A stretch of DNA of 33,664 nt, from contig PSPR01000006.1 of the NCBI GenBank assembly GCA_004195515.1, positions 1 through 33,664 of the forward strand. The letters run 5' to 3'. Numbering within the stretch: the stretch's first letter is position 1; each line of letters begins with the position of its first letter. The notes under the pieces are model-generated. The model saw only the letters and a list, made by a program, of their open reading frames with translations. It searched no databases and was not told the DNA's origin. Both the position numbers and the translations under genes were made by a program. The DNA comes from Methanobacteriota archaeon. GTDB taxonomy: Archaea > Thermoplasmatota > Poseidoniia > Poseidoniales > Poseidoniaceae. Below are positions 6,371 to 16,877 of this stretch, piece after piece.

Positions 6371-9300
6371 ATGCGCAAGGCAATCCCGTTCATATTCGTC
6401 CTGCTGATGCTGATGCAATCCATGCTTATCGTAGTCACACCTGTAAGTGCCGATACCGAAGGACGTGGAGGCAGTTCCGATGATTTTTTCGTTTCAAAAA
6501 TCACAGTTGCGAATGCTAGTGCAGTCAATAATTGGATTCAACCAAGCGGAACAATCTTGCAATATATCGAAGTCGGCGATACAGTCGATATTGAAGTTGA
6601 GGTAAAAAGAGGAGGAGGTGCACTTTCAGGCACCGATGCAACCGTAACAGTAGAGATTGTCCATCCGATTGGCTTCGTGGTCAATTCGACTAGTTGGCCC
6701 ACGGTCTCAATGCTCGGTGGCCAAACTCATACCGATTCATTCTCCTGGACAGCAACTGTCGCTCATTCAATATTGAATATTAGTACCAATGAACTTCAAG
6801 GTGGGTTAATAATCCGAGCAACGGTAACCAACAATCTCGATGACCGAAATGAAAATGATGTTATGGAACAAACTTTGCCGGTTGCTGTTGCTCAAGATGA
6901 GATGGAAGGTGAAGCGGATGGTGTTCCTTCAGTTGGGCAATCACTTATGTTCCCTGGGCGATACCCAGCAAATGGTGGTAGCGCTACCGGTAAAGGTATT
7001 TGGCAATCCGACAATAGTGATGGCGCAAAGGGAACTATTCACATGAAGCACGCAAACGATGGGTCAGATTACCCATCAGGCGCTCATGACCGCTTGATTT
7101 ACGGCCACCGGGGAACCAGTAATTGGCAATGTAACCAAGGAGCATATCTCGATGGTGATCTATCAAATAATGCCTATGGAAGCATGGCGGTATGTAAAAA
7201 CCAATTCGTTTCAGCAGCCTATGTTTCCGCTCAAGTCCATGTTCAAACTTGGGGAATGATGGGTGCAGGAGATTATGTCGCTCTCGAATTTTGGCGAAAT
7301 AATGGCGGTCCTGGAAATGAATTGACCCATAATTTCAGTGAAGATCTGCCTGGAACCAGCTCTGGCCAGTGGAGCAATATTTCTTGGGACCCAACCGAAT
7401 TGCTGGGTGGTCATTCTTATTCGTATGGGATTTTATTCCATTCGGATACCAGCGGTGCAGCTTCTGGCATGCATGTCGATGATTTCGTATTATTTGGTGT
7501 TGAAAAAGTGCCAGAATTCACACTTGATATAGACTGCGACTCACCGGATAGCGGTTATACTACTCCTCCAAATACAGTTCTTCCAATGCATTGTTATATT
7601 ACAAATAATGGCTACCAACCTGCAGCGGTATTGATCCAATCAGATGTTTCAAATCTAACTTGGATGTCTCCCATACCAATGATTAGAATCGATTCTGAAC
7701 ATCCCTCTCAACACGGTACAAGTATCAGTTTACCTCCGATTCCCGGCGGTAATGTTAGCGAGATGTGGATCAATCTATCGGTCCCAGCTGGTGCAGATGT
7801 ACAACAACAGGTTTGGCAGGTTTGGTGGACCGATAACGGTGGGACTGAACTAGGCGAATTGGGTCGAATTAGCTCCGATGTCGCCGTGACTGAACAATTT
7901 GGCGTTTATCTTTCTTCAAGCGCTCCTCTCATTGCCGATTCATTAGGGCCCGGAGAAACCGGTGAAATCCCATTCCGTCTCCAAAACTCCGGTAACAAAG
8001 AAGCAGGATTTACAATAACATCTAATTTCCCACTAGATGATGGTTGGACAGCCTTCGTTACCGATTTGAATAGTTCTATAGTTCAAATGCCTCTTCCTTT
8101 GGGTAAGGGCGAGCAAATCGACCTCTTTCTCAATGTAACAGCGCCCTCGAATTCCGCTCCAGGTGAAGTTCCATTTACACTTCGAGCGGTTTGCCCAACC
8201 TGCGGCCAATCCTTATTCGGCACCGATGTAATCTCCAAGAAAATCGAAGTTCCTACCTTGATCAATCTCGGGATGATTGCAGAATCATACGATTTAATAG
8301 GCTCGGCAAATGGACAAAACATAGTCGTTTATGTCGATCTATTCAACTTGGGCAATGCTGATGAGACTTATACCTTGGAAAGGGTTGAATCGAATTGGAA
8401 TTTACTTTCCTATCTTTCTTCGGATGAAACAACAGTTCTCGATGCGTGGGATGGAGAAACCTCGATTGCACTAAATTTGCCAATGCCGATTGGATTAGAA
8501 CCCGGTTTGTACACCGTTACCATCAAGGCTACTAGTGTAAGTGATCCGAGTGTAACCGAGCAGATTACAATCAATGTAGAGATAACCGATACCGCTGCGG
8601 TAGCCGTATCAGATGAGGTCGCCGACCAATCATTCATTCCAGGTGACCCATCTCAATCCATGAGATTTGAAGTTACCAATGCCGGAAACCAACCAGATAA
8701 ATTTAAAATGAGTTTAGACCCACCTGAAGGCATGAATGCTCATTTCGAGCAAATTCTCGATAATCAAACCCCTATGCTTGAACCGGGTGCTTCCTATAAC
8801 GTCACGGTCACATTTGATTTTGATGATGACATCGATGGTCAATTGATACTCAAAGTAATTGCAACAAGCGTAAATGAGCCAGATGTTTCATCGTTTGGCA
8901 AATGTACATATTTCGTAGGCTCTCAAAATTGGATTCGAATCATCGCTGATGAAACCACGGTTATCACCGAGCCGGGCGAATATGTTGTGGTAGTTAAAAT
9001 CAGGAACCAATATACCGACAGTCAAGGAGTTTCGATGTCGTTGGATCAACAAGGCTCTAACCGCTGGTATAGTGCTTCGATCGATACTTCAGATAGAGAT
9101 TTTACATTAGCGCTTGAACAAACTCGTGACGTGACAATCCGATTCGAGGTTACAGAATCTAGTTTGATGAATTTGGAAGAGGACTTCATTGATACCCATG
9201 TTCGGATTTGGGCGATCTCAAATACAGTCGAAGATGCAGCATCATTAGACCTCCAAGTAACCTTGACCAAGATGAAATCATCAGATCAAATTAACGATGC

Positions 9301-9658
9301 TGCCGATGGACAATCCTTCGATTGGATCGGCATCGCAACTTGGATTGTAGGTAGCAGCCTAATCATTGCGTTGGTAGCTGTTTTGATCGGTGTACTCAAC
9401 GGTGGCGAAGAAGAAGAAGAAGAACAGGATTGGGCCGAGGAGGGTTATGAAGACAATATTTCTGCAACATATGGCAATGTGGCAGCGGCCCCAACCATCG
9501 AACCGCCCAAGGAAATTCCAGTATTAGCTCCACCAACGCCAGTTCCGGAACCGGTGGCTCAAACTGGCCCAGCAATTCCTGCCGGCGGCCTACCTGAAGG
9601 CTGGACTACGGACCAATGGCAGCATTATGGTCAGCAATGGCTTGACAGTCAGAACTGA
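6371..9658 (+). CDS. Exported, membrane-anchored multi-domain beta-sandwich protein
   Basis: This 1095-residue protein has a signal peptide (1 to about 27), a region of about 185-375 that resembles a jelly-roll lectin/MAM-like domain (aromatic and Gly-rich, with paired Cys), and several CARDB/NEW3-like Ig-type repeats with the recurrent pattern G-N-x-(P/A/D)-(D/E)-x-(F/Y)-x-(L/I/M). A membrane helix at about 986-1009 is followed by a poly-Glu stretch, a Pro-rich linker and a C-terminal tail (GLPEGWTTDQWQHYG). The tail looks like a short amphipathic W-x-x-x-x-W motif. The topology is a large extracellular part with a small cytoplasmic tail. A surface structural, adhesion or binding role is inferred; no catalytic motif was seen. 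Confidence 0.85.
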   Translation: MRKAIPFIFVLLMLMQSMLIVVTPVSADTEGRGGSSDDFFVSKITVANASAVNNWIQPSGTILQYIEVGDTVDIEVEVKRGGGALSGTDATVTVEIVHPIGFVVNSTSWPTVSMLGGQTHTDSFSWTATVAHSILNISTNELQGGLIIRATVTNNLDDRNENDVMEQTLPVAVAQDEMEGEADGVPSVGQSLMFPGRYPANGGSATGKGIWQSDNSDGAKGTIHMKHANDGSDYPSGAHDRLIYGHRGTSNWQCNQGAYLDGDLSNNAYGSMAVCKNQFVSAAYVSAQVHVQTWGMMGAGDYVALEFWRNNGGPGNELTHNFSEDLPGTSSGQWSNISWDPTELLGGHSYSYGILFHSDTSGAASGMHVDDFVLFGVEKVPEFTLDIDCDSPDSGYTTPPNTVLPMHCYITNNGYQPAAVLIQSDVSNLTWMSPIPMIRIDSEHPSQHGTSISLPPIPGGNVSEMWINLSVPAGADVQQQVWQVWWTDNGGTELGELGRISSDVAVTEQFGVYLSSSAPLIADSLGPGETGEIPFRLQNSGNKEAGFTITSNFPLDDGWTAFVTDLNSSIVQMPLPLGKGEQIDLFLNVTAPSNSAPGEVPFTLRAVCPTCGQSLFGTDVISKKIEVPTLINLGMIAESYDLIGSANGQNIVVYVDLFNLGNADETYTLERVESNWNLLSYLSSDETTVLDAWDGETSIALNLPMPIGLEPGLYTVTIKATSVSDPSVTEQITINVEITDTAAVAVSDEVADQSFIPGDPSQSMRFEVTNAGNQPDKFKMSLDPPEGMNAHFEQILDNQTPMLEPGASYNVTVTFDFDDDIDGQLILKVIATSVNEPDVSSFGKCTYFVGSQNWIRIIADETTVITEPGEYVVVVKIRNQYTDSQGVSMSLDQQGSNRWYSASIDTSDRDFTLALEQTRDVTIRFEVTESSLMNLEEDFIDTHVRIWAISNTVEDAASLDLQVTLTKMKSSDQINDAADGQSFDWIGIATWIVGSSLIIALVAVLIGVLNGGEEEEEEQDWAEEGYEDNISATYGNVAAAPTIEPPKEIPVLAPPTPVPEPVAQTGPAIPAGGLPEGWTTDQWQHYGQQWLDSQN

Positions 9659-11449: not shown

Positions 11450-11460
11450 GGGTGAATCTC

Positions 11461-13422
11461 ATGCCAACCATCACAAAGGTCTGGATTGAAGAGGACTGTA
11501 TAACCTGTGATGCTTGCGAAGATATTTTGCCTGAGGTTTTCAGCATAACTGACGATTCTAGTTTCATCAAAGCAGAGGTTCGCGAGGACGGAAAGTTCGA
11601 CCGTAACACCGGCTTTTCAATGATAAAACCAGAGTTCCGAGCCGAATATTCCGATATTATTGAAGAGGCAGCAGAAGCTTGCCCGGTCGAGATTATCAAA
11701 TTCGAATATGAGGCTGTAGAAGCCGATGGAGCTCCTGCAACACCTGTGGAGGAAATCGTTGAAGCAACTCCAGTTGCAATCGAGACCTCAGCAGATGATG
11801 GGGTCTTGGCAGGGGTTCTAGCAGGTGACCGTTCTTTGGCGGTATTTTTTGGTTCACAGACCGGGAATGCAGCAGGCTTGGCTGAGAAGACCGTAAAGAT
11901 GGCTGCTAACTTCGGTTTGGATGCTAGCGTTATCGATATGGATGGTTATGATCAATCCAGATTATCTTCCCATAAGCGAGTTTTGATAATTACCTCAACT
12001 TGGGGAGAAGGTGAAATGCCGGATAATGCCGAGTCTTTGTGGATTGCTACATGTGCATCTAATCCCAGCCTTTCGGGAATTCATTATTCGATCTGTGCTA
12101 TCGGTGATACCTCATATGATGAATACTGTAAAGCTGGCCACGATTGGGATGGAAAATTTTCGGATCTCGGTGCAACCTGCATTCAAGCAATTCAAGAATG
12201 CGATGTAGATTTCGATGAGCCATGGGCTCAATGGGTTGATCAAGTCCTACCTCGCATCGCTTGCGTCGATGCTGATGGAGTCTTCCAAGAAGAATTGGTC
12301 GAAGCGATGATCGCATATGGCGCTGGCGATGAAGAAGTTCCAGCCGACGATGGTGACTTTAGCCCAGGGCAAATCGAACAGCCGGAGATTTCTTTGACAT
12401 TGAAAATATTCCGATATGACCCGATAAAGGCTCAAAGTGGTTATGATACAGTCGCTTGTGTTCTACCTGGACATGCAACCATTCAAGATGCTTTGATTGC
12501 CATCGCTCGTGAAATCGATGGATCACTTACATTCAACCAAGGCCAAATCGGAGGGCTTAGCCCGCTGACCGGCCTGAAAGCAAATGGGCGAATAGTTAGT
12601 GCTGATACCATGAGACTTTGTGATTTGGTTGCTGCTGATGGCACTTTAACCCTAGAACCACTTCCTGGATACGAGGTTGTTAAAGACCTCATGGTCTCTT
12701 ATGATCGCTACGATACCGACCGTGCAAACTCCAAACCTTGGATGGTTGCTGACCCTCGCCAAGGCGAGCGATTAGCTAGTGGAGCACCTATGGGTGTAAT
12801 GGCCTCGGCAAAAGCGACCGCACTACATGCTATGGCTGATGTTGGCGGATTACAAATGATCAATTCCATGTCTGATACCTACATGGTCGATGATAATTAT
12901 TCTGGCCCAGGGCTGAACCTACAACGCTGGGTTCGCTCCCAAGACCCTCGTAGTGGTAGTGGACACCAAAGATCGATGTTCGACCTCTTGCAAAAGAATG
13001 GCGGAGTTTGGGACGAAGCGGATATCTCTTCGATTTACCGCCATGGAATCGATGGTGCTCAAGCTGCTGATGCTCTTTACGCAGCCCGGGCTCGCCTATT
13101 GGCTGAGTTCAAGTTCACCGGCAAGCCCGGTCGAATGGTCAAAGGATATTCTCGCTCGGTCAAGTTGACTGGAAATGTCAACGAAACCTCACTTTACCGT
13201 TCGGTTCTAGGCCCGCTCGGACTTGGTTCGAATATCATGAACGGAGTTTCACTACGAATGATGCTCGGTTTCACTCGAAACGGTGGACCGATGATGCGTG
13301 GTTTCCAAGGTATGCTTGCACCACCAGCAGGAATTGGCAAAATTCCTGATATGATTAATTTCAAAGTGGATAATCACCACGAAATTGTGGCGATATTCAA
13401 TAAATTGGATAGGAGATTCTGA
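11461..13422 (+). CDS. Ferredoxin-flavodoxin-SdhB/TfrB-like fusion with lost Fe-S ligands
   Basis: A 653-residue fusion. Residues 1-85 are a single-cluster ferredoxin with Cys13, Cys16, Cys19 and Cys74-Pro. Residues 124-270 are a flavodoxin domain of the diflavin-reductase type with the FMN phosphate loop GSQTGNA (131-137) and STWGEGEMPDNA (179-190). Residues 310-417 follow the N-terminal domain of succinate dehydrogenase/fumarate reductase iron-sulfur subunits (LKIFRYDP, DGSLTF, LTLEPLPGYEVVKDLMV). However, the [2Fe-2S] loop that should hold four Cys reads FNQGQIGGLSPLTG. Residues about 465-550 follow the SdhB/HdrC C-terminal domain (YSGPGLNLQRW, GVW, HGID) with all cluster Cys gone. The ATG at 11461 is chosen for its GGTGA site and ferredoxin start. 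An electron-transfer or scaffold role is inferred. Confidence 0.8.
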   Translation: MPTITKVWIEEDCITCDACEDILPEVFSITDDSSFIKAEVREDGKFDRNTGFSMIKPEFRAEYSDIIEEAAEACPVEIIKFEYEAVEADGAPATPVEEIVEATPVAIETSADDGVLAGVLAGDRSLAVFFGSQTGNAAGLAEKTVKMAANFGLDASVIDMDGYDQSRLSSHKRVLIITSTWGEGEMPDNAESLWIATCASNPSLSGIHYSICAIGDTSYDEYCKAGHDWDGKFSDLGATCIQAIQECDVDFDEPWAQWVDQVLPRIACVDADGVFQEELVEAMIAYGAGDEEVPADDGDFSPGQIEQPEISLTLKIFRYDPIKAQSGYDTVACVLPGHATIQDALIAIAREIDGSLTFNQGQIGGLSPLTGLKANGRIVSADTMRLCDLVAADGTLTLEPLPGYEVVKDLMVSYDRYDTDRANSKPWMVADPRQGERLASGAPMGVMASAKATALHAMADVGGLQMINSMSDTYMVDDNYSGPGLNLQRWVRSQDPRSGSGHQRSMFDLLQKNGGVWDEADISSIYRHGIDGAQAADALYAARARLLAEFKFTGKPGRMVKGYSRSVKLTGNVNETSLYRSVLGPLGLGSNIMNGVSLRMMLGFTRNGGPMMRGFQGMLAPPAGIGKIPDMINFKVDNHHEIVAIFNKLDRRF

Positions 13423-13432
13423 GGTCAACATT

Positions 13433-14293
13433 ATGGTAAAATATTCTTATTATCCCGGAAATGTTGCCCGCCAGGCTAGTCAAGAGGTGGAGGATACAAT
13501 TCAACCATTGGCGAAATCTCTCGGTATCGAATTGATCGAAATGATTGGTTATAGTAGCGATGGCGGCGACATTATCAAGCAAGGCAATCCTGAGTTACAA
13601 CTGGCATTGAATGCTCGAAACTTTGCAATCGCTCAAAGGAATGGTCACAATATCATCACTCCTTGTGCTTCGGCCCAAGGAATTATGTTTGAAGCATTGA
13701 CCACCTTACAAAACGACCCGATCGCGTTAGCAAAAACCAATCGTGTCCTCGAGGACACGACCGGAATGACACTTGACCCATCAACTCTTGAAACCAATCA
13801 CCTGCTTCATATTCTAGTCGATGAGATCGGCTTGGATAAGGTCGAGGCCGCGGTTGTAAATCAACTAGATTTGGATATCGCATGCTATTATGGACCTCAT
13901 ATGCAAAGGGAAGGTGCTTGTGGAAATGACGATGTTTGGAATCCGAATTACATGGAGAAATTGATTACTGCTCTGGGTGGTCGTCCTGTGGATTTTCCGA
14001 GTAAAACCATGAGTGTAGGTAACCCCTCACTTCTTACCCTTGGAGAAAGTGTGATGAAAATGACCGCAAAAGTTCTAGCCGACTCCAAGAAGGCTGGTGC
14101 CCAGGTGTTGGTCAGCGCTTGTACCCTTTCACACTACAACTTGGATTCATACCAAGGCAAAGCAGGACGAATCGCAAAACTCGATACTGCATTGCCAGTG
14201 GTCAACCTAACCGAAATCATTGCATTTGCTCTGGGCCATCATATCGATAGATTCGCCCAATTACGTACTCGTGCACTAATCATCGGTTCGTGA
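13433..14293 (+). CDS. HdrB/SdhE-like CCG-domain protein lacking most cluster cysteines
   Basis: A 286-residue protein with the two-domain layout of heterodisulfide reductase subunit B, SdhE and TfrB: YYPG near the start, then LGIELIEMIGY, TPC, and in the second half YYG, ALGGRPVDFPSKT, GNP and SAC. In the family each domain carries Cys, Cys-Cys and Cys-x-x-Cys ligands for a noncubane [4Fe-4S] cluster. Here YYPGC is YYPGN, NCCG is SSDG, CxxC is C78-A-S-A, YYGC is YYGP, CCG is SVG, and CxxC is C230-T-L-S. Only the first Cys of each CxxC remains (Cys78, Cys230). It starts 10 nt after the fusion gene, with GAGGT at 13421-13425, so the two products probably form one complex. Normal heterodisulfide chemistry is unlikely. 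Confidence 0.8.
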   Translation: MVKYSYYPGNVARQASQEVEDTIQPLAKSLGIELIEMIGYSSDGGDIIKQGNPELQLALNARNFAIAQRNGHNIITPCASAQGIMFEALTTLQNDPIALAKTNRVLEDTTGMTLDPSTLETNHLLHILVDEIGLDKVEAAVVNQLDLDIACYYGPHMQREGACGNDDVWNPNYMEKLITALGGRPVDFPSKTMSVGNPSLLTLGESVMKMTAKVLADSKKAGAQVLVSACTLSHYNLDSYQGKAGRIAKLDTALPVVNLTEIIAFALGHHIDRFAQLRTRALIIGS

Positions 14294-14300
14294 AATTAGT

Positions 14301-16877
14301 TCAACCGTGCAAAAAGCGGTAAAGGTCTCTTGCTTGAATCGATGATACTCCATCGACTTCACTCAATTCCTTTTCAGTAAGTTGGCATAATCCATCGATA
14401 TCACCGGCTTTTTCCATCACTCTTTGAGCGGTTACCAAACCAATCCCTGGTAATTCAGCAAGAATTCGGCTGCGTTGCTTGAGAACTTCCAAGGTCCATC
14501 TCTTCGATAATGCGCCCTCGATCGCTTCGCCGTTAATAATCGATAGAACCTCCTGTGAGGCCGCTCGTAATGATTCTAGAATTGGATCTGGTGGTTTTCG
14601 TTTGCTATGTCCGACTAGTAGGTCGAGCATTCTTGCTTCCCGTTTTGCTGCGATTGAGACAAATCTTGCAGTACCCTCGGTCGATCCCGTCATCAATACA
14701 GGGATTCCCAAATCTAAGGTGAGCCATGCCATCGCTCCTTGAACCGCATTTGGGTGAACTCTATCGGTCTCATTTGATTCAATGATCATCAGCGGGCGTG
14801 CAGCCGCGCTCATCAATCTCTTCGCTTGATGAACCAATCTACCGTCCAAAAGAGAATCTACCAAATCTCTTGCACTTTTTCTCTCGATAAGAATGCGCTC
14901 CGAGATTCTAATGTCTCCAACCGGCAAGTGTTCCATGCTCACCTCATGACCCATGAGCTTGAGTAAAGATGGCAATGTCGAAGCCGATTCTCTATTGTCA
15001 ATGGCAATCAATTCGAGTGATTGATGTTCTATACCAAGGTGGTCGGTTTCGGTAATCGCTGCGGCTGCAGTTGCAGATTCCTCTTCCCTACTTGGTGATG
15101 AAGTGCCGTCTAGAACCGGCTCCCACCATTTAGGCTCGACTGTTTTGGCGGGTTCAGGGCTTGAATTTGCGAATTCGGCTAAGGATTTTTGGGCTCTCGG
15201 CCTATTGATTAATTCCGGACTTTTGGGTTTGGATTTTTGTTGTTTTGGCTCTACAACTTTGATTTCTGGTGGTCGATATAACCTCTCTTGCTCGGACTTT
15301 ATGAATGATTCAGCCGTTTGGCCATCGACGGTGAACAAGGATAAAATCTCGTTTGTAGGCGGTGCTCTTCGGGGTAATCTCGATTGCCGTTTCAATCGTT
15401 CTAAGGTTCTATACATCGCTTGCTCACGCTTGATTGACGCCATTTGAACATACTCGTCCCGGGTATTTTTTGAAATGAGTATATGGACATCACCTTTGCT
15501 TTGTCGAGCGGTCCTTCCCCGTCGTTGAATCGCCCTGATCGCACTAGGGACGGGTTCGTAAAGAATTACACAATCAGCCGCGGGAACGTCCAAACCTTCC
15601 TCGCCGACCGATGTTGCTACCAATACGTTGATCTCGCCGCTGCGGAAGCGATCCAATTGTTGCAATTGTTCCTTTTGCTTCATTCCAATATTTCCACTCT
15701 TACTAGATTGGCCGACAAATCTCCCAGCCTTCACTCCATCCAATTGCGATAAGATAGATATTAAATAATCAACAGTATCCCTATATTCGGTGAAAATTAT
15801 TACCTTGCCACCTATCTTTAGTTGGGTAGAGGTGAGTGAGCTTACCAATTGCGGTTTTGGATGGATCTCTTGCATTTGTCCACAGATTCGGTGGAAATTG
15901 CTAACCTCTGTCAATGATAGGAATCTCTTGGTTTTCCTGGCATTATCTCCTCTTGCTCTATCCAAGTATTGAATCGCGGTATTCAGGCCCTGAGTCTCGA
16001 TTAAATCCAATAATCTATGAAGTCGGCGCAAATCTCCAATTCGCTTTGCAGCATCATAACCTCGAGGGTCGCCTCGGCCGATAGCAGCACTTGCTCTACG
16101 CTGGGCTTCATCGATAGCGGCAGTAGTTATCCTTCCGGTGCGGATCAAGAATCCGCCTCGACGTAAGAATTCAGATTCCTCTGATTCACACATTCTAAGC
16201 GGTCGAATCAGATCGAGCAAATTTTCAGGCAAGGCCAAACGGTGTGATTCCACCTCCATTGCGGTAACATAAGGTGCTAGCAGATCATCTTCTTTTCGGG
16301 CGACATGTAATCTTTCGATTCCCAAGCGTTGAACGATTTCTATCACTCGCTCATCCTTTACGCCTGGTGAGGCTGTAGCGGCCAATACAAGGGCATTGGA
16401 ATTTGATTCCAAATACATATCACCCAATTGAGCCATCGAATCAGAACCGGTCGCATGATGGGCTTCGTCAACGATTAGCAAATCGATATCTCCAAGCAAA
16501 ATTCTGCCGTTTTGAGCATCGTTTCGAATAACGTGTGGTGTAGCCATCACTATTTTTGCATCGACCCATAATTGCTCTCGCTTGGCCGGCCTAACATCAC
16601 CGGTTAGAATGATGATCTTCTCTTCAGGTATCGCGATCATCTCACGAGCCATGCGCGCTTGTTGGGCTACCAAACCAGTTGTTGGCGCTACCAAGACAAT
16701 TTTGCCGGCTCCTCCTATCGCTTCGGCCATCGCCATCCATTGAACCGCGGTTTTTCCTAAACCGGTCGGCATTACCAATAGGGTCGATCCAGACAAAGCT
16801 TGTTTTGCTGCAAGCAATTGATATGCTCTCGCTTCAACACCTTCCCTGAGGTTGGGATGGCCGAGACTTGGAGGCAT
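14301..16877 (-). CDS. hef: Hef helicase-nuclease (XPF/FANCM family)
   Basis: An 858-residue protein with the full Hef layout. The superfamily 2 helicase has Walker A MPTGLGKTA (36-44), DEAH (137-140), ATASPG (167-172) and motif VI QRRGRTAR (451-458). A Pro/Lys-rich linker (about 535-615) leads to an ERCC4-type nuclease with GDIRISERILIERKSARD (654-671), carrying the D-x(n)-E-R-K-x(3)-D catalytic set, and a tandem helix-hairpin-helix end (about 805-857) containing LPGIGLVTA. Hef processes stalled replication forks and branched DNA and works as a dimer, often with PCNA. Length and motifs are normal for Euryarchaeota. It converges with the HdrB-like gene, leaving 7 nt between stops. The ATG at 16877 has no clear ribosome binding site, so the mRNA is possibly leaderless. 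Confidence 0.95.
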   Translation of the reverse strand: MPPSLGHPNLREGVEARAYQLLAAKQALSGSTLLVMPTGLGKTAVQWMAMAEAIGGAGKIVLVAPTTGLVAQQARMAREMIAIPEEKIIILTGDVRPAKREQLWVDAKIVMATPHVIRNDAQNGRILLGDIDLLIVDEAHHATGSDSMAQLGDMYLESNSNALVLAATASPGVKDERVIEIVQRLGIERLHVARKEDDLLAPYVTAMEVESHRLALPENLLDLIRPLRMCESEESEFLRRGGFLIRTGRITTAAIDEAQRRASAAIGRGDPRGYDAAKRIGDLRRLHRLLDLIETQGLNTAIQYLDRARGDNARKTKRFLSLTEVSNFHRICGQMQEIHPKPQLVSSLTSTQLKIGGKVIIFTEYRDTVDYLISILSQLDGVKAGRFVGQSSKSGNIGMKQKEQLQQLDRFRSGEINVLVATSVGEEGLDVPAADCVILYEPVPSAIRAIQRRGRTARQSKGDVHILISKNTRDEYVQMASIKREQAMYRTLERLKRQSRLPRRAPPTNEILSLFTVDGQTAESFIKSEQERLYRPPEIKVVEPKQQKSKPKSPELINRPRAQKSLAEFANSSPEPAKTVEPKWWEPVLDGTSSPSREEESATAAAAITETDHLGIEHQSLELIAIDNRESASTLPSLLKLMGHEVSMEHLPVGDIRISERILIERKSARDLVDSLLDGRLVHQAKRLMSAAARPLMIIESNETDRVHPNAVQGAMAWLTLDLGIPVLMTGSTEGTARFVSIAAKREARMLDLLVGHSKRKPPDPILESLRAASQEVLSIINGEAIEGALSKRWTLEVLKQRSRILAELPGIGLVTAQRVMEKAGDIDGLCQLTEKELSEVDGVSSIQARDLYRFLHG

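Follow-up and report, generated by a model that had tools for sequence, protein, structure and literature searches.

Complex II-type iron-sulfur subunits (SdhB) are textbook electron wires, and HdrC, the partner of HdrB in heterodisulfide reductase, does without the [2Fe-2S]-fold domain. In the E-type SQOR, SdhB carries a second [4Fe-4S] cluster in place of the [3Fe-4S] cluster, and SdhE carries a 10-cysteine motif (PMC2680327). Here we describe a gene pair in a window of 33,664 nucleotides (the whole stretch of DNA analysed) from an archaeon of the order Poseidoniales; its first member, hereafter X, joins a ferredoxin (Fd) and a flavodoxin (Fld) domain to an SdhB-like part (SdhB'), and its second is an HdrB- and SdhE-like subunit (HdrB' or SdhE').

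The pair resembles the E-type SQOR and 8-methylmenaquinol:fumarate reductase SdhABE in its SdhB and SdhE/HdrB-like folds, in its SdhB-SdhE gene order and in sequence, but differs in that the locus lacks SdhA, that only 0 of 12 and 2 of 10 ligand cysteines are present in the two subunits, and that Fd and Fld have been added at the N-terminus. With heterodisulfide reductase HdrB-HdrC it has the HdrB fold in common (TM-score 0.86–0.88 for HdrB'), whereas no HdrA adjoins the pair, both non-cubane sites are lost in the window and the SdhB-type partner in X retains the [2Fe-2S]-fold domain. A third likeness is to CysJ and the diflavin reductases (NADPH sulfite reductase flavoprotein, P450 reductase), as the FMN domain of X and a separate FAD/NADPH protein both score best to cysJ, and Fld is fused to the FAD/NADPH protein in some relatives without Fd; unlike in CysJ, however, the halves are split over two loci, the FMN half sits on the SdhB' scaffold and CysI is absent from 61 genomes. 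Lastly, PDB 3kwl aligns in Foldseek to both the SdhB' and HdrB' halves, but is not known to carry Fd or Fld. All components of X-HdrB' are known folds, and the open-access library covered by our literature search yielded no described system with this architecture, in agreement with the first-pass annotation of this DNA, which knew of none. The pair may well represent an undescribed class of electron-transfer complex, a proposal that we place just short of an even chance: an Fe-S-free SdhB-SdhE scaffold with exchangeable Fd/Fld heads, acting in trans with a stand-alone FAD/NADPH reductase, present order-wide and seen at several stages of cluster loss.

Architecture of X and the loss of its cluster ligands

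The gene for X occupies positions 11461–13422 (653 aa plus a stop codon at 13420–13422) and, like all features of the pair, lies on the + strand; a Shine-Dalgarno-like GGGTGA, read from the sequence, is found at 11450–11455, 5' of the ATG at 11461. The 653-aa protein is firmly identified as ferredoxin plus CysJ-type flavodoxin plus SdhB domain, with Pfam matches to Fer4_13, Flavodoxin_1 and Fer2_3, in that order and all above curated cut-offs. The [4Fe-4S] ferredoxin domain (residues 5–82, positions 11473–11706; Fer4_13 E 7e-9 over residues 10–80) has all four ligands, Cys13, Cys16, Cys19 and Cys74, which are kept in every aligned Fd-bearing relative. It is followed by the CysJ-type flavodoxin (FMN) domain (residues 121–270, positions 11821–12270; Flavodoxin_1 E 2e-26 over residues 128–250), in which the FMN motifs SQTGNA, STWGEGEMPD and GDTSYDEYC are present and conserved in the alignment of relatives, for which the best NCBIfam model is cysJ (E 1e-35), and which is the sole Flavodoxin_1 match in the window's genome. 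The intact N-terminal ferredoxin and FMN-type flavodoxin proposed in the first-pass annotation are therefore both borne out by these matches, cysteines and motifs.

The remainder of X consists of a [2Fe-2S]-type fold (residues 313–416, positions 12397–12708; Fer2_3 E 9e-8) without its four cysteines, and of the SdhB' helical domain and C-terminal extension (positions 12709–13419) without the eight cysteines of two [4Fe-4S] sites. NCBIfam SdhB models match X as far as residue 518, and a profile search of the PDB finds SdhB 6lum_B (E 3e-16). The predicted model of full-length X (mean pLDDT 68, pTM 0.35) is good for Fd and Fld and of low confidence for much of the SdhB part, and in Foldseek it returned flavodoxin-type structures only among the matches listed. 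In genome G039, a natural Fld-Fld-SdhB'-HdrB' fusion is encoded as one 997-aa ORF (L128:4341-7331); its model (pLDDT 74.5, pTM 0.68) was predicted from an alignment of read-through rows, with TGA as W, solely to hold both subunits in one row. This model matches SdhB/FrdB chains with E 3e-8 to 3e-5, low TM-scores and an rmsd near 16, probably reflecting a different placement of the SdhB subdomains in the model, and HdrB chains with E 4e-16 and TMt 0.86–0.88. Together, the Fer2_3 and NCBIfam matches, the profile search and Foldseek place X on the SdhB fold and support the earlier suggestion that its C-terminal part retains the SdhB frame. Foldseek also aligns the fusion model with PDB 3kwl, an uncharacterised 514-aa Helicobacter pylori protein for which the hydrogenase-operon protein HydE is a candidate identity; the alignment extends across the SdhB' half as well as the HdrB' half (E 1e-12, TMt 0.55), and there is no significant sequence match (E 1.6). 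3kwl may be another SdhB-SdhE fusion, and its fold could be a second SdhB-SdhE example free of clusters.

Ligand columns were defined by alignment to six SdhBs from the same phylum, each with 12 cysteines (4+4+4). At these columns the window has Q,S,T,D / V,L,I,S / E,I,I,G, and no ligand cysteine is found either in the window (0/12) or in any of the 25 aligned relatives, which come from both families of the order; two stray cysteines, 333 and 387, in the window's SdhB domain are off the ligand positions, and in the helical and C-terminal columns the relatives have no cysteine in common. The earlier observation that every expected ligand has been replaced is hence confirmed, and extends to homologues, in which retained cysteines would have pointed to local decay or sequence error. 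The assignment of the third lost site to a [3Fe-4S] cluster does not stand, as the nearest relatives are of the E-type, with a four-cysteine motif for a second [4Fe-4S] cluster. In X, an SdhB has been stripped of its whole wire while the fold stays under strong selection.

Conservation of the pair and stepwise ligand loss in HdrB'

Poseidoniales are among the most abundant archaea of the surface ocean. An orthologue of X was detected in 60 of 61 Poseidoniales genomes (the window's genome and 60 relatives), the sole absentee, G011, being 59% complete, and a match to X is present in 246 of the 293 genomes of the class. A phylum-wide search outside Poseidoniales returned no match of comparable strength (best 5e-26, versus 1e-106 or better), and those of the weaker matches whose sequences were inspected proved to be SdhBs with cysteines. 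The domain order Fd-Fld-X, for which a search in other genomes had been proposed, recurs across the order. In the one measurable close pair (L024/L022) dN/dS of X is 0.022, most other pairs being saturated at synonymous sites. In the loci read across the order, the genes run surface protein, thermosome, X, HdrB', Hef-type helicase, ribosomal protein L3; the pair is thus under strong purifying selection at one fixed place across Poseidoniales. SdhA is absent from the X locus, and none of the genes that surround the pair throughout the order (surface protein, thermosome, Hef-type helicase, ribosomal proteins) points to a functional linkage.

The gene adjoining the thermosome gene across the order encodes, at 6371–9658 of the window, a 1095-aa protein, likely a surface protein, that matches no Pfam family with confidence; its position is conserved but its sequence diverges quickly, with about 30% identity between families and 62% within the genus. 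The Hef-type helicase/nuclease (DEAD, ERCC4 and HhH) at 14301–16877, on the opposite strand, is in some relatives only about 590 aa long, or split.

The HdrB' gene (13433–14293, 286 aa) follows X and is adjacent to it in the relatives read; the protein matches the NCBIfam model MFR_anch_SdhE (E 7e-35), and its family profile finds HdrB in the PDB (E 1e-51). A Shine-Dalgarno-like GAGGT at 13421–13425 overlaps the stop codon of X, suggesting translational coupling, and the TGA-G...ATG arrangement at the junction is found in most relatives.

The two non-cubane sites expected in HdrB' fall at positions 10, 42, 43, 78 and 81 (site 1) and 155, 194, 195, 230 and 233 (site 2). None of the relatives examined has kept site 2, which in nearly all of them reads x,S,V,C,S. 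Site 1 is fully retained (CCCCC, 5/5 Cys) in genera g2, g3, g6, g7, g8 and g17, apart from one g7 member with CCCSC; elsewhere the window's family has NSDC[AS] at this site, and the second family has NSCCT. Overall, the window retains 2 of 10 ligand cysteines (C78 and C230), and no relative has more than 6 of 10. In a midpoint-rooted FastTree phylogeny of the X and HdrB' proteins themselves, the genera with intact site 1 sit in both halves of the tree. Because of this distribution, and because the replacement residues differ, we infer from the tree that site 2 and all SdhB clusters disappeared first, in an ancestor, and that two or more losses of site 1 followed. Living relatives thereby display an intermediate, with one non-cubane site left, together with two end states.

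The earlier proposal of an old fold kept as scaffold is incomplete: an SdhB fold without ligands is indeed fused to intact Fd and Fld domains, but the unit is a two-subunit SdhB-SdhE remnant, whose HdrB-like partner lost its clusters stepwise.

Exchange of N-terminal modules and a stand-alone reductase

Four types of head are found on X, namely Fd-Fld, Fld-Fld, Fld alone and Fd alone. Fd is present in 39 of the 60 genomes with X, as Fd-Fld-X in all of them except G046 (Fd-X without Fld), and is replaced or absent in 21 (Fld-Fld-X or Fld-X); Fd is therefore not essential to X. Where site 1 of HdrB' is kept, the head is Fd-Fld in 12/12 cases, and where it is lost, Fd is absent in 18/33 (Fisher p 0.001, a description rather than a test, given counts taken by eye from related sequences). 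The Fld of X is the only flavodoxin domain of the genome in 35 of the 39 Fd-bearing genomes, the exceptions being G012, G015 and G033, which also have a free flavodoxin, and G046, which lacks any. Extra flavodoxin genes, in contrast, occur in 19/21 Fd-less versus 3/39 Fd-bearing genomes (Fisher p 1e-10, uncorrected for phylogeny), and in Fd-less genomes they are either free or fused to the FAD/NADPH protein, the latter fusion being present in 12/21 Fd-less and 0/39 Fd-bearing genomes (in G038, counted among the 12, it is presumed to span two contigs). The order thus offers a natural experiment on cofactor replacement and on the exchange of ferredoxin for flavodoxin.

The single Fd-X protein (L132:4327-5724, G046:C9) comes from a genome that is 91% complete and has no Flavodoxin_1 match, while its close relative G048 has Fld; the absence may be a real loss or an assembly collapse.

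A CysJ-type FAD/NADPH module is present in 57 of the 61 genomes, the four without a detected reductase all being incomplete. In the window's genome it is a protein of 418 aa (G000:C56, L206:3646-4899; cysJ E 3e-118) with no FMN domain, and open-frame lengths of about 420–510 aa indicate that most of the other reductases likewise have none; the genes for X and the reductase are not neighbours. We had considered that the CysJ-like protein is restricted to Fd-less genomes, an idea that was dropped, since nearly all genomes have the FAD/NADPH module, and the restriction applies to its fusion with Fld alone. A role as the CysJ partner in sulfite reduction was also ruled out, since the sulfite-reductase haem protein CysI (PF01077) was detected in 0/61 genomes, with control genomes positive.

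A tree of the flavodoxins clusters the N-terminal Fld1 of Fld-Fld-X with the Fld fused to the reductase twice, once within genus g1 and once, together with g20–g21, within the second family, so that the flavodoxins on the two proteins share an origin. This copying of a related Fld onto both proteins is the main reason why we propose that X and the reductase work together. The reductase can also act without X or Fld, since in Marine Group III-like genomes of the same class and another order (G061, G062, G063, G065 and G066) it is present in 5/5, X is absent, and flavodoxin is absent in 4/5.

Possible functions of the pair

The relic pair is probably a new electron-transfer hub. Its ancestor would have been an E-type SQOR with SdhB and an SdhE/HdrB-like subunit, from which SdhA and essentially all internal Fe-S clusters were lost; consistent with SdhABE ancestry, intact SdhA-SdhB-SdhE operons of the same phylum (12/12 and 10/10 Cys) align to both subunits. 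The remnant would now serve as a docking scaffold, with a new redox chain at the N-terminus of X that would comprise the CysJ-type FMN domain and, in most lineages, the [4Fe-4S] ferredoxin domain. Together with the CysJ-type FAD/NADPH reductase encoded on its own elsewhere in the genome, X would most likely make up a split diflavin reductase, in which electrons would travel between NADP(H), FAD on the reductase, FMN on X, Fd (or a second Fld) on X and a soluble ferredoxin or flavodoxin user or donor. Our guess as to direction, from reduced ferredoxin to NADPH, is based on general thermodynamics only. That X docks onto HdrB' and the reductase is inferred, as are the cofactor occupancy, the direction and the end acceptor. 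Speaking against a split diflavin reductase are the Fd-X genome with no flavodoxin anywhere, the Marine Group III-like reductases without X, the four relatives without a detected reductase, the separate locations of the X and reductase genes and the low confidence of the full-length model in much of the SdhB part. On balance, we judge it an even call whether X-HdrB' is a repurposed SdhB-SdhE scaffold on which a split chain of NADPH-FAD, FMN and [4Fe-4S] (or a second FMN) docks; this reading names a concrete reductase partner for in vitro testing.

The proposal in the first-pass annotation that the electron wire had been replaced by new cofactor domains is upheld as regards the lost wire and the added domains, but not as regards replacement in the same role: since a separate complex II is present, a new role for X is at least as likely as the old role with new cofactors.

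The pair might instead be a disulfide or thiol reductase, in which the Fd/FMN head feeds HdrB', and HdrB' reduces or senses a disulfide, ancestrally by way of the remaining non-cubane cluster and now by way of the conserved C78 and C230 in the two half-sites. We consider this unlikely, even though site 1, where kept in several genera, always accompanies Fd-Fld-X, nearly all members that have lost both sites still have C78 and C230, and the residues that took the place of the other ligands have become fixed in turn (N, S at site 1; S, V, S at site 2), suggesting a pocket that works; a cluster-free SdhB' leaves no cofactor path from the Fd/Fld head.

Similarly doubtful is an adapter that docks ferredoxin or flavodoxin to a membrane-bound or otherwise large enzyme (e.g. 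a complex I-like enzyme or a 2-oxoacid oxidoreductase), with SdhB' and HdrB' as the docking surface. The retention of the fold and of many invariant residues despite the loss of the clusters would be expected of such an adapter, and the exchange of heads fits one that needs only to match the soluble carrier, but no partner gene is linked to the locus among the thermosome, Hef-type helicase and ribosomal protein genes.

An iron-poor surface ocean would favour cluster loss and the replacement of Fd by Fld, and both the stepwise cluster loss and the head exchange are as expected if the pair still did the ancestral SdhBE job with fewer iron atoms. Such iron economy is nevertheless very improbable as the explanation: SdhA is missing from the locus, a separate SDH operon with a cysteine-bearing SdhB is present, and an SdhB without clusters cannot pass electrons along the old path. 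That X is a pseudogene or the product of a frameshift or assembly error, in favour of which the ligand loss alone speaks, has a negligible probability, being refuted by the orthologues across the order and class and by the dN/dS of about 0.02, as the pair is found order-wide at a fixed place under strong purifying selection.

As a separate observation, the canonical sdhA and sdhB of the window's genome (G000:C45:35789-38306, minus strand; L082 and L211) both appear frameshifted, with an SdhA open frame of 418 aa and an SdhB in overlapping ORFs of 171 and 142 aa, compared to about 257–272 aa for SdhB in sister genomes; these frameshifts are probably an assembly error.
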